Source of the DNA: Bacteroidales bacterium
GTDB lineage: Bacteria > Bacteroidota > Bacteroidia > Bacteroidales > UBA932
Assembly: GCA_017447815.1 (NCBI GenBank)
Contig: JAFSMS010000117.1
Span: 1 to 55,200, forward strand
Reading direction: 5' to 3'
DNA: 55,200 nt
The notes beneath the pieces are model-generated. The model did not search any database and was not told the DNA's origin. It saw nothing but the letters and a program-made list of their open reading frames with translations. The translations under genes and the position numbers were made by a program. Positions 22,447 to 26,461 of the stretch are shown here, one piece after another. Numbering within the stretch: position 1 is the first letter of the stretch; every line of letters begins with the position of its first letter.

Positions 22447-22579
22447 CCGCCTCGACACCAAATCGGCCTTCTATGGCACTGTGGTTGTCGAGGCGGCCGT
22501 GTTTTCGGCCCAAACGGGCATTTTCTATTCCGCCTCGACAAAAAATCGGCCCTGGAGACCGTTCTGCGTGTCGAGGCGG
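22447..22579. repeat. 133-bp direct repeat R1, two REP-like hairpins
   Basis: It contains two 50-bp hairpins with the same 11-bp arms, CCGCCTCGACA and TGTCGAGGCGG: 22447-22496 and 22530-22579, separated by 33 bp. Each loop begins with (A)AATCGGCC. It lies between the 3' ends of the convergent GH130 and DUF262 genes, 7 nt from the latter's stop. Identical copy at 26329-26461. Confidence 0.95.
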
Positions 22580-22586
22580 ACGGCCT

Positions 22587-23759
22587 TTATCGATTCCCTT
22601 TGGTTCGATTGTGGGTTTTGCAGAGCATTTGGCAGTTTTCGATATCGGTGGGACCGTTCTTGCTCCAGGCTGTTACGTGGTCGGCGTCCATTTCGGCCAG
22701 TTTCCAAATGCGGGTACGGTTGGCATCGTGGCCGATGGCGCACAGCGGGCAATTGGAAATGCCCTTCTTCTCTGCATCCGTGGTCTGTCGGGCATATACC
22801 GTTTTCTTCGTAGGCTCGTCAAAGACACGGACATTGAGAAGACGAGGCTCCTGGCAATCTCCCAGGATGTACTCAAAAATGCCCTTCTTCTCTTTGACAT
22901 AGAAGTTTTCGTAGAGTTCTCTGACTTTCGCGGCAACGGCAGCCGGATCATACCCTCTCTTATGATATTTTTCATATAGGTCTCCCCACTTGAGACCACA
23001 CATCTCTTTCTCTGGCTGAATATCAAATACAGATGTAATCCAATCGATTACGGAATTGAAATAGGCTCTGAGTTCGGTGATGTCCGAGTTGTACCGGTGC
23101 GTGGCCATGTAGTCTTCCGTGTGCCCCTTGCTCACCCAGTCCAGGGCTGCAGCCAGATAATCCTGTCGCTTGGCCGTTCCCGGGATAAAACAACTCCATT
23201 TGTTGATATTGGTATTATTGGAATTGGAGAACTCTTCTTTCGCCTTGGTGATGAAAGGACCGGAATAAACGGCATTGAGTGTCTCTTGCAAGTTGAGGGG
23301 AATTCCCACGATATTAATCGTCCGGAACCAGTCTTTGATTTCCGGCTCAGTTCCCTCGCAGACATAAATCAGCAGCGGAGTATCCAAAAATGTCTTTTGT
23401 TCCTCCGGATTCAATGAAGTGAAATACCAGGGACGTCCATTCTCATCAATCCAAGCAAATTTCTCCGTAATGAATCGGCCCAGGGAAGTGATTCGTTGCT
23501 GTCCGTCCAACACTTCATAGTGGTCTTCACCCACCTTGGAGAAGTAGATGAGCCCCAGCGGATAACCGTTCCTTACAGACCGGATTACATCCACCTCTTT
23601 TTTCCCTCCGTTCTCGGCATACAGATAGTGCCGCTGGAATTCCGGCTGGATGGTCAAACGACCGGAAAGCCCATACAAGCCTTTGCCTTCGTATTCGTTG
23701 TACTGGAACCCCTTGCATATATCGCCGATGGTCCATTCGTTTACAAGACGTGCAATCAT
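22587..23759 (-). CDS. DUF262 domain protein with C-terminal HNH endonuclease
   Basis: A 390-aa predicted nuclease. The N-terminal DUF262 (GmrS/ParB-like) domain shows QPEFQRHYLY (about 38-47) and the NTP-binding/hydrolysis motif LDGQQRITSL (D85-R89). The C-terminal HNH domain has CPLC (C337, C340), MDADHVTAW (H361), IENCQMLC and HNRTKGN. Proteins combining DUF262 with a His-Asn nuclease occur in type IV and phosphorothioate-linked defence (GmrSD, SspE, BrxU). Here the neighbour is a DNA methyltransferase, so a restriction role is plausible but unproven. ATG 23759 was chosen over upstream codons that fall inside the inverted-repeat element. Codon use is AT-richer than the flanks. Confidence 0.85.
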   Translation of the reverse strand: MIARLVNEWTIGDICKGFQYNEYEGKGLYGLSGRLTIQPEFQRHYLYAENGGKKEVDVIRSVRNGYPLGLIYFSKVGEDHYEVLDGQQRITSLGRFITEKFAWIDENGRPWYFTSLNPEEQKTFLDTPLLIYVCEGTEPEIKDWFRTINIVGIPLNLQETLNAVYSGPFITKAKEEFSNSNNTNINKWSCFIPGTAKRQDYLAAALDWVSKGHTEDYMATHRYNSDITELRAYFNSVIDWITSVFDIQPEKEMCGLKWGDLYEKYHKRGYDPAAVAAKVRELYENFYVKEKKGIFEYILGDCQEPRLLNVRVFDEPTKKTVYARQTTDAEKKGISNCPLCAIGHDANRTRIWKLAEMDADHVTAWSKNGPTDIENCQMLCKTHNRTKGNR

Positions 23760-23774
23760 AATTGTTGTGATTTT

Positions 23775-23900
23775 ACTGACAGACAATGACTTCGGACCGG
23801 TACGGACCTTCAGTCCTATCCCTCCCACGCCTTCGGCGCGGGTCCCTCCCGCTCACGAAGCCACGGGCGGCTACGCCGTCCGAAGTCATTGTCTGTCAGT
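23775..23900. repeat. 126-bp element with 23-bp perfect terminal inverted repeats
   Basis: Arms at 23775-23797 and 23878-23900 are perfect reverse complements (inner sequence GACAATGACTTCGG). The 80-bp GC-rich interior holds a further small hairpin around CACGCCTTCGGCGCGG and two TCCCTCCC repeats. It fills almost the whole gap between the methyltransferase stop and the DUF262 start. It could be a miniature inverted-repeat element, or a strong hairpin that uncouples expression of the two genes. Confidence 0.85.
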
Positions 23901-23905
23901 TGATT

Positions 23906-25300: not shown

Positions 25301-25315
25301 AGAAATTGTTTTCAT

Positions 25316-25357
25316 GAATCGTAAAAAACATCTGAAAAAACACCTGAAACAGCACTT
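25316..25357 (+). other. Conserved noncoding element shared by both RAYT loci, copy 2
   Basis: GAATCGTAAAAAAC, then a short A-rich spacer, then CACCTGAAACAGCACTT, ending 8 nt before the RAYT 2 ATG. It is the counterpart of 11047-11006 (minus strand). A tandem pair of 12-mers (CAGGTGTTTTTT, CAGATGTTTTTT on the minus strand) is visible inside. The surrounding 326-bp gap (25040-25365) otherwise holds only the structured leader and its promoter. Confidence 0.7.
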
Positions 25358-25365
25358 TCTTTTTT

Positions 25366-26322
25366 ATGAATCTTGGCAAATTCATTCCTGAAAATTACCT
25401 TGCGGCCATGAAAGAGTCCTATCATATTTGCTTCACTTCTCATGACGAAGTGATTTTCCGGGATGATGAAGACCACGGGATGTTCATCAATCTGATGGCC
25501 CTCCGATGCTATGCAGAGAATGCCGAAATCCTGGTAGATGCAGAGATGTCCACACACGCCCACCTGAACATCTTCACAAATGAGCCCATGCGATATGCCT
25601 CCAACCTGCGCCTTTCATATACACGATACTTCAATAAAAAATACGGTCGGGAAGGCCGACTGGGGCAGAAAGGCACTTTCGTCCTGAAGGTGGAAGGGCA
25701 TGTTCACCAGATGGTTTTGCAAAATTACATCGGCCGGAACGGACTCCATCACAACGCAGCGGCTACCGCTTTCGGATACAAATATTGCAGCACCAGGGAC
25801 TTGTTTTCAAATGACATCTGTTTCCAGACAGAAAAAGCTGTTCCCATGAGCCGGGCCGATATTGCCTCTTACCTGCCCCGCCACTCCGAATTCCCGGACG
25901 AGTATCAGATGAATGAGCACGGGGTTTTTGTCCGCCGCAGTTTCATGGAACTCCGGCGAGCCGAGCAGTTCTACGGCTCCCCCAGAAACTATCTTTACCA
26001 GATGAACCGACTCACCGATGAAAGCTGGTCCCGGGAGCAGGATGGGGATTGCACCGGCAAACCTTTGACGCTCGCTGACATTGAACAGGCCGATGCGCCT
26101 TCCGTCGCACAAATGCTTAAAAACGAGACCGGAAGGAACTTCAGTCGCACCCGCCTCCAAGACCTGGATGTCTGCCGCCTCATTGACAAGGATTTTTTAC
26201 CCAGGTTCGGAGTCTCCTCCATCTACCGGCTTACTGATACGCAGAAAAAGCGCATTGCCCGCGCACTTTTCTACGACTACCGGCTCCCGGACCATCAGAT
26301 TCGCCGTTGCCTGGCCCTTTGA
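25366..26322 (+). CDS. Second RAYT-like Y1/HUH transposase
   Basis: A 318-aa relative of RAYT 1, diverged in sequence but with the same order of parts. The HUH-type motif is in MSTHAHLNIF (H64, H66; the middle residue is Ala, less bulky than usual), followed by a basic helix (LSYTRYFNKKYGREGRLGQKG). The candidate nucleophile is in QNYIGRNGLHHN (Y121), and a C-terminal helix-turn-helix reads KKRIARALFYDYRLPDHQIRRCLAL. It ends 6 nt before repeat R2. Together with R1 it forms a RAYT/REP unit whose palindromes differ from those of RAYT 1. Activity is uncertain, but no frame damage is seen. Confidence 0.85.
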   Translation: MNLGKFIPENYLAAMKESYHICFTSHDEVIFRDDEDHGMFINLMALRCYAENAEILVDAEMSTHAHLNIFTNEPMRYASNLRLSYTRYFNKKYGREGRLGQKGTFVLKVEGHVHQMVLQNYIGRNGLHHNAAATAFGYKYCSTRDLFSNDICFQTEKAVPMSRADIASYLPRHSEFPDEYQMNEHGVFVRRSFMELRRAEQFYGSPRNYLYQMNRLTDESWSREQDGDCTGKPLTLADIEQADAPSVAQMLKNETGRNFSRTRLQDLDVCRLIDKDFLPRFGVSSIYRLTDTQKKRIARALFYDYRLPDHQIRRCLAL

Positions 26323-26328
26323 AACTTG

Positions 26329-26461
26329 CCGCCTCGACACCAAATCGGCCTTCTATGGCACTGTGGTTGTCGAGGCGGCCGTGTTTTCGGCCCAAACGGG
26401 CATTTTCTATTCCGCCTCGACAAAAAATCGGCCCTGGAGACCGTTCTGCGTGTCGAGGCGG
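26329..26461. repeat. 133-bp direct repeat R2, two REP-like hairpins
   Basis: Base-for-base identical to R1 at 22447-22579. It sits between the convergent 3' ends of RAYT 2 (6 nt away) and the GH92 gene (8 nt away), and could also act as a bidirectional terminator. Confidence 0.95.

Follow-up and report, generated by a model that had tools for sequence, protein, structure and literature searches.

A DUF262-HNH nuclease paired with an EcoRI-type methyltransferase of exchangeable modules: a candidate two-protein restriction-modification system in a repeat-bounded segment of a Bacteroidales genome

In classical stand-alone Type II restriction-modification (RM) pairs, both enzymes must change together. 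Here we describe a nuclease gene and a methyltransferase (MTase) gene of a Bacteroidales bacterium (UBA932), located within positions 22447 to 26461 of contig JAFSMS010000117.1 (55,200 nt; this whole stretch is called the window below), for which specificity would be changeable through the MTase alone, because the MTase would carry the specificity and the nuclease would take its target from it. Several described systems resemble this pair in part. The MTase belongs to the family of M.EcoRI, with which it shares the order of the frame, the PEQFE anchor and the C-terminal Y.R(I/V).I(K/R) motif around a variable block, V2, which is short in M.EcoRI; the partner here is a DUF262-HNH protein and not R.EcoRI, and identity to M.EcoRI is 0.41 in the core and 0.48 in the middle part of the protein, as against 0.20 and 0.07 in its two variable blocks, V1 and V2. 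GmrSD and its kin (DUF262-DUF1524 enzymes of Type IV or modification-dependent restriction; BrxU, SspE) have in common with the nuclease the DUF262 domain with its DGQQR motif and a His-Me finger nuclease. The nuclease of the window differs from these in its HNH domain (PF01844, plus a weak HNH_5 match only, with no match to DUF1524), in its constant partner MTase, and in showing no sign of modification dependence.

A further likeness is to the phase-variable Type I systems with invertible hsdS, which combine exchangeable modules, inverted silent copies, a tyrosine recombinase and a constant nuclease (as outlined in parts of PMC5903667 and PMC11892184). Here there is no separate S subunit and no HsdR or HsdM; the modules are part of an EcoRI-type MTase itself, and inversion is seen for V2 alone. 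Similarly, in the movement of target recognition domains (TRDs) in Helicobacter, TRD alleles falling into homology groups swap between the frames of Type I S and Type III Mod proteins; the relevant part of PMC3983042 names Type I and Type III, whereas the frame here is an EcoRI-type MTase with a stand-alone nuclease. The pair is therefore a member neither of Type I, for want of Hsd subunits, nor of the GmrSD group, given its HNH in place of DUF1524 and its constant MTase. By analogy, it would act as a pared-down Type I system of two proteins, the MTase standing for M and S and the DUF262-HNH protein for R. We consider it likely that the window carries a horizontally acquired two-gene RM system, bounded by sequences like repetitive extragenic palindromes (REPs), in which the MTase unites modification and specificity and the nuclease is a subordinate cutter.

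The nuclease matches GmrSD_N (8e-16) and HNH (1e-7) in Pfam, and PADLOC assigns it to REase_II (3e-75) and labels both genes Type II. The (I/V)DGQQR motif of GmrSD-type enzymes reads LDGQQR in it (L84-R89), and this motif as well as the HNH residues is invariant in 43 aligned sequences. The MTase start was placed at the ATG used by its relatives, not at an upstream GTG (25093). No NCBIfam model matched the nuclease, the MTase or the transposase gene described further below at E 0.01, and among solved structures the nuclease gave a chance-like lysozyme match and the MTase none.

An earlier note on this DNA had left two readings side by side, an RM pair and a modification-sensing system, and had proposed counting how often homologues of the two genes adjoin. 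Relatives of the MTase were collected in a scan of GTDB contigs, in which at least 576 were found and the best 80 by MTase similarity were kept, with flanks read up to 6 kb. In every locus in which the neighbourhood was readable (75/75), the nuclease gene lies 3' of the MTase gene on the same strand; in the remaining 5 of the 80 the contig stops inside the MTase gene, at or in V2. Over 88 pairs the gap between the genes is at most 12 nt in 71, including a 4-nt overlap in 28, and exceeds 90 nt in 14. In four loci (L041, L046, L065, L066) an extra, unrelated open frame of 206-371 aa was seen between the two genes. The pair spans several phyla and also occurs on plasmids and a phage: the nuclease had matches in 83 plasmid and 16 phage records, with 80% or more of the query covered at a single place in 43 and 4 of them, respectively, and the pair is present on plasmids of Enterococcus, Pediococcus, Pseudarthrobacter and Aeromonas and in Flavobacterium phage laban6-1. 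No close relative of the nuclease was found in a scan of viral_contigs, though phages of another collection carry one. Other partners are found beside more distant MTases of this family, M.EcoRI among them; of three further MTase records, one adjoins R.EcoRI, one a DUF262 gene, and one sits at the end of its record. Among annotated neighbours of the pair in five records there were no hsd genes, and the pair's own two genes belong to other Pfam families. The constancy of the partnership supports a restriction-modification pair as a real unit and was the reason for setting the modification-sensing (Type IV) reading aside. The DUF262 passages of PMC7785942 and PMC4978471 contain nothing on this pair.

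The genes and their pairing had been correctly recognized in the earlier note; the exchangeable and sometimes switchable modules of the MTase become visible only through its relatives. We aligned 84 MTase-nuclease pairs, comprising the loci of the MTase and nuclease scans in which both genes were near full length and had no internal stops, plus the window. The MTase consists of a conserved frame (residues ~1-195 and 246-322) that is interrupted by V1 and followed by V2. Among 567 locus pairs whose nucleases are 80-95% identical, MTase identity is 0.83-0.97 over residues 1-160 and 0.64 over 161-200, drops to 0.24-0.34 at residues 201-240, recovers to 0.60-0.74 over 241-320 and drops again to 0.23-0.40 at 321-360; the lowest window of the nuclease is at 0.68. 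The 84 pairs fall into 15 V1 classes and 34 V2 classes in 57 combinations (31 V2 classes and 54 combinations without four rows in which V2 is near-empty or doubled), and 11 of the 15 V2 classes with at least two members combine with two or more V1 classes. V1 and V2 are discrete alleles that are common to distant hosts. Identity of the nuclease across the 84 pairs correlates with that of the MTase core (Spearman 0.64), not with that of V1 (0.03) and little with that of V2 (0.17). When the classes are mapped onto the nuclease tree, 42 changes are counted for V1 and 59 for V2 (minima 14 and 33), as compared with 17 and 34 (minima 14 and 33) for control clusters of the core cut to equal numbers. 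The nuclease and the MTase core evolve together, and V1 and V2 reassort.

Individual loci display this exchange directly. L079 and L087 differ at a single one of 387 nuclease residues and at five positions of the MTase core, and belong to different classes in both V1 and V2. In L092 two tandem MTases stand beside a single nuclease, with identities of 0.97 in the core, 0.97 in the middle, 0.23 in V1 and 0.28 in V2; similar tandem MTases occur in L020 (0.82, 0.71, 0.21 and 0.28, respectively). Residue 235 of M.EcoRI, which reportedly affects specificity, was considered as support for V1 and dropped, since this Arg maps to residue 256 of the window's MTase, outside V1.

V1 and V2 could also set the specificity of an MTase whose switching regulates genes, in which case the nuclease would be dispensable: weak, conditional or aimed elsewhere, for example at foreign modification. 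Such a phasevarion would accord with switchable MTases often regulating genes (stated in part of PMC7394358) and with the DUF262 family being known mostly for modification-dependent restriction (parts of PMC12707154 and PMC4619093). Against this speak the presence of the nuclease in all readable loci, the invariance of its catalytic residues and its evolution in step with the MTase core, and we regard a phasevarion with a dispensable nuclease as quite unlikely.

In some relatives V2 is organized as a switch. At L066, L083, L105, L107 and L178, one arm of a 19-bp perfect inverted repeat forms the start of V2, and the other arm begins a silent V2 located on the opposite strand between the MTase and the nuclease; a second inverted V2 follows the first silent one in L083, L184 and L066 (L105 is the same locus as L184, L107 as L185, and L106 as L188). 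Directly after the nuclease lies a gene for a tyrosine recombinase, which matched Phage_integrase at 5e-27 to 2e-29 in the three tested and was found beside nine nuclease loci (L065, L066, L072, L083, L105, L106, L107, L178 and L179). Co-occurrence was examined in 92 of the 105 nuclease-match entries, namely those whose junction could be read and whose sequence continues for 500 nt or more on the 3' side of the nuclease: six had both the recombinase and an inverted V2, one the recombinase alone, none an inverted V2 alone, and 85 neither (Fisher p = 1e-8). Among the 13 entries left out was L188, with the recombinase and an inverted V2 but without the MTase. Two V2 alleles, A and B, are shared between these loci: L184, L185 and L083 express A and keep B silent, and L178 has the opposite state, expressing B with A silent. 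In L066 the expressed position is occupied by A, and the contig of L188 holds no more than a silent part, which equals A. Correspondingly, a 388-bp segment of L178 is 0.57-0.59 identical to those of L184, L185 and L066 when compared directly and 0.81-0.84 when inverted. Three further contigs (L037, L040, L060) end inside the inverted-repeat sequence, one with a mismatch, such that the second arm is unseen; these ends may be assembly breaks of the kind expected at a mixed inversion. Invertase relatives of 43-51% identity were also seen in other genomes (L191-L199).

A second anatomy relies on short-repeat tracts within V2, which were found at three loci of the 88 plus five scanned. L058 carries a (GACA)6 tract (7044-7067) from which the three frames give three complete V2 ends, one stopping after the first V2 and the others continuing into the second or the third; the first of these is near the V2 of M.EcoRI (KFRKGNDEKDL vs KFRKGVDEKDL). 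In L082, an isolate by its title, (AG)12 (7067-7090) leads to two complete V2 ends and the third frame stops early, and in L093 an (ACAG)13 tract (7038-7089) lies in V2 at the contig end. The silent or alternative V2s match V2s expressed elsewhere, up to 98%. Two switch anatomies and both states of the inversion are thus present among the relatives, and the switches are presumably active. The 20-mer of the inverted repeat had no match (at most one mismatch) in 395 class-level genomes, which makes the inverted-repeat version of the switch a rarity among them. L106 and L107 belong to the window's own genus. The window copy itself is static, with one V1, one V2 and no recombinase: it has no inverted V2 copy, the window yielded no recombinase match at E 1e-4, and its genome contained no match to the repeat motif and no close recombinase at E 1e-70.

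That two unrelated devices act on V2 leaves little room for a role of V2 other than in specificity, and V1 and V2 together probably set the DNA specificity. A nuclease of fixed specificity would be dangerous beside V2 switches, which suggests that the nuclease follows the MTase in its choice of target. The rival account is a classical Type II pair, in which the nuclease by itself recognizes one fixed sequence that the MTase always methylates, and the variation of V1 and V2 has some other cause, for example escape from phage anti-restriction proteins or relaxed constraint. It can point to the PADLOC call, to the family's namesake M.EcoRI adjoining its own R.EcoRI, and to a weak association between V2 and the nuclease. 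Discrete V1 and V2 alleles common to distant hosts are not what relaxed constraint would produce, however, and neither the targeting of V2 by two unrelated devices nor tandem MTases with the same frame and different V1 and V2 sits well with a fixed site, which makes a classical Type II pair unlikely. By gene content the pair can still be called Type II; as to the rule that the nuclease recognizes its site independently, the indirect result given here would point away from it.

Several observations weigh against a nuclease that follows exchangeable, switchable modules, or limit the sample on which it was seen. The association mentioned above comes from a 34-locus clade in which pairs with the same V2 class have nucleases that are 2.1 points more alike (p = 0.002). 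It peaks at nuclease residues 1-20, which adjoin V2 in the DNA; the association can be explained by linkage, and weak co-adaptation is possible. For V1 no overall association was found in this clade (p = 0.10), although 3 of 19 nuclease windows reach p < 0.05. An inverton is lacking in 85 of the 92 loci, L065 has the recombinase without an inverted V2, and in L066 the MTase frame stops just ahead of the V2 in the expressed position. The recombinase frame of L184 is short (278 vs 317 aa), and in L072 the nuclease and the recombinase are split and no perfect repeat was found, so that not every copy of the switch need work. The loci, having been chosen by MTase similarity, are not a neutral sample; most are metagenome assemblies, in which chimeras are possible (L082 and L083 carry isolate titles), two pairs of rows are identical, and 33 of the 79 branches of the nuclease tree are open, i.e., unsupported.

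Taking both sides together, we lean slightly towards a distinct RM organization: a compact, probably nucleotide-dependent system of two subunits, with a single EcoRI-type MTase chain whose two interchangeable recognition modules set the specificity of modification as well as of restriction, and with a constant DUF262-HNH protein as the cutter. Recombination would diversify this specificity, and in certain lineages a dedicated invertase or frame slippage would switch it. According to this model, the conserved MTase frame would hold the catalytic centre, and V1 and V2 would read the target. The DUF262-HNH protein would be the restriction subunit, taking its target from the MTase and acting, presumably in complex with it, at unmethylated sites; it probably needs a nucleotide, and the pair may serve in defence. 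A host could then change specificity through the MTase alone, and the relatives would do so by recombination, by recombinase-driven inversion of the V2 cassette, or by slippage of a repeat tract that chooses among V2 frames. If this is true, swapping ~45 residues would suffice to change specificity, the pair would offer a two-protein model of shared recognition, and a widespread family (at least 576 relatives, as well as plasmids and phage) would gain a connection with the phase-variable methylomes of gut and rumen bacteria. Whether the MTase sets cutting can be tested directly, since there are natural pairs whose nucleases are almost identical. No paper on a switchable DUF262/EcoRI-type pair was recognized in the open-access literature, within a coverage that includes few subscription papers, and no open-access text was found to combine 'DUF262' with 'invertible'. 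A 2023 survey of gene-altering inversions may list such loci.

The structured leader reported earlier is real, and its strand assigns it to the MTase: it lies on the minus strand, with a folding z score of -7.3 over 25094-25235. Of 85 loci, 24 have a terminator-like hairpin no farther than 200 nt ahead of the MTase, 15 of them at a distance of 56-63 nt (0.6 in crude shuffles). In an alignment of 19 leader sequences, 16 of the 32 base pairs show a two-sided change that keeps pairing; the rows were picked for similarity or for a visible leader, and this covariation count is therefore not neutral. A model built from the leader had 10 matches in the 64 sources searched, including the window, which is itself a row of the model, and matched 108 of 199 genomes of the family, often several times per genome. 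Among the 15 best places (>125 bits), six stand in front of EcoRI-type MTases (themselves rows of the model, or related to such rows) and six in front of members of an unrelated gene family, of which the two tested matched MmeI-MTase weakly (E 3e-6 to 4e-6, narrowly missing the cut-off); the others precede an unidentified gene, a DUF4249 gene and an AraC-type regulator, one each. The leader loci (L203-L236) further include L221, where the leader precedes an N6_N4 MTase, and weaker matches precede lipoprotein and other genes. The leader is widespread and, in this sample, strongest in front of DNA MTase genes, which are of several unrelated kinds. Its attenuator-like architecture probably limits transcription of the window copy.

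The pair lies in a segment that an earlier reading had described as an island splitting a glycosidase region, and this description is borne out (Table 1). The two 133-bp repeats that enclose the nuclease, the MTase, its leader and the transposase gene are identical over their whole length and in direct orientation, and G+C content between them is 0.46-0.49 as compared with 0.58-0.63 in the neighbouring kilobases. By Pfam the flanking genes are GH130 on the left and GH92 on the right. GH130 homologues were found in 18 of 61 genomes of the same genus, the window's own included, and in two relatives (L147 and L155) the GH130 and GH92 genes converge across a gap of ~115 and ~95 bp that lacks the segment. 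These junctions gave no match to the nuclease, the MTase or the transposase, and no repeat is visible in the gap; the remaining GH130 loci are uninformative on the site, GH92 being unseen, otherwise oriented, or the gene a distant paralogue. The presence/absence comparison suggested earlier supports an island, absent from these two relatives with the same junction. The nearest relatives of the nuclease within the family are in another genus (86% identity), while two copies in the same genus are only 58-59% identical, and a horizontal arrival of the segment would fit this pattern.

Table 1. Features of the repeat-bounded segment, with positions in the window
Feature	Position	Strand	Remarks
Left 133-bp repeat, REP/BIME-like double palindrome (BIME, bacterial interspersed mosaic element)	22447..22579	.	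just 3' of the nuclease stop codon
DUF262 (GmrSD_N)-HNH nuclease, 390 aa	22587..23759	-	Pfam, PADLOC; LDGQQR and DH..N..HN..K intact
Palindromic element of 126 nt between MTase and nuclease, its ends perfectly inverted over 23 bp	23775..23900	.	no second copy in the genome
EcoRI-type adenine MTase, 377 aa	23906..25039	-	ATG at 25039; Pfam EcoRI_methylase 2e-123
V2 block, MTase residues ~326-368	23936..24064	-	second exchangeable module; window allele is a singleton class
V1 block, MTase residues ~200-245	24305..24442	-	first exchangeable module; window allele in the commonest class (29/84)
Structured leader of the MTase	25085..25264	-	intrinsic terminator 25126-25099, its end 59 nt upstream of the MTase start
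Candidate Y1 (HUH) transposase gene, RAYT-like, 318 aa (RAYT, REP-associated tyrosine transposase)	25366..26322	+	divergent from the MTase
Right 133-bp repeat, identical to the left	26329..26461	.	just 3' of the RAYT stop codon

Both repeats contain a palindrome pair built on CCGCCTCGACA and fold as a double palindrome, with z scores of -6.7 and -7.7 on the two strands. Full copies in the genome are these two only; two further places are diverged, partial matches, 71-76% identical across 71 and 94 bases of the query. The 22-nt unit of the repeat, with up to three mismatches, has 13 matches in the genome as compared with none for a reversed control pattern; four of the 13 lie inside the two repeats, and some of the other nine look coding by eye. 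The REP-like palindromes that flank the RAYT also occur elsewhere in the genome, in few other copies, and we count the 133-bp repeats as a low-copy REP-like family. Rfam gave a single match over 21000-28000, far under its family threshold, and the leader counts as without an Rfam match in this stretch.

The RAYT has a weak Pfam match (Y1_Tnp, E 0.058, 14 bits as against a gathering cut-off of 23) and a single weak match among solved structures (E 0.5); its HAH motif and conserved Tyr were read by eye. Relatives of 28-43% identity occur in 49 of the 199 family genomes, the window's own included. A repeat pair within 500 nt brackets 17 of the 27 RAYT loci with at least 300 nt on either side, two of which are distant paralogues in the window's own genome, as opposed to none of 30 control genes, and the layout of a RAYT between two REPs is common in the family without the restriction pair. 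A subclass of TnpA-REP transposases, 2.6, found mostly in Bacteroidetes, is comparable, with a Y1 transposase gene flanked by atypical palindromes (described in part of PMC6006769); the window differs by the restriction pair between the left repeat and the RAYT. The RAYT with its flanking repeats has the look of an ordinary REPtron, and the oddity would be the restriction pair within it.

The earlier suggestion that linkage to a RAYT and its REPs is a way to carry a defence cassette is not upheld. In its strong form, it would have the RAYT move the whole REP-bounded segment as one composite, regularly carrying the restriction pair along, and the identical direct repeats abutting both ends, the AT-richness of the segment and the two relatives without it at the same junction would all be expected. 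However, no RAYT relative was found at any of the 80 MTase loci, and on this count the RAYT was rejected as a regular carrier; linkage to the pair seems particular to this genome, since those loci lack it. The pair is also found on plasmids and in a phage, RAYT relatives are repeat-flanked without such cargo, and REPtrons, according to part of PMC6006769, do not seem to transpose as one unit. Integration or duplication through recombination between two REP copies would fit the direct repeats at both ends and explains them equally, and transposition of a composite unit by the RAYT is very unlikely.

Two observations concern other RAYT genes. In L126 (1304-1420 and 3431-3547) and L136 (1224-1340 and 2870-2986), the RAYT-bracketing repeats enclose ~0.4-0.9 kb of extra DNA after the RAYT. 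The window itself holds a second, distant RAYT-like gene (10285-10893, minus strand) in another AT-richer stretch, at 9.9-11.2 kb, which is flanked by 96-bp direct repeats that are 93% identical.

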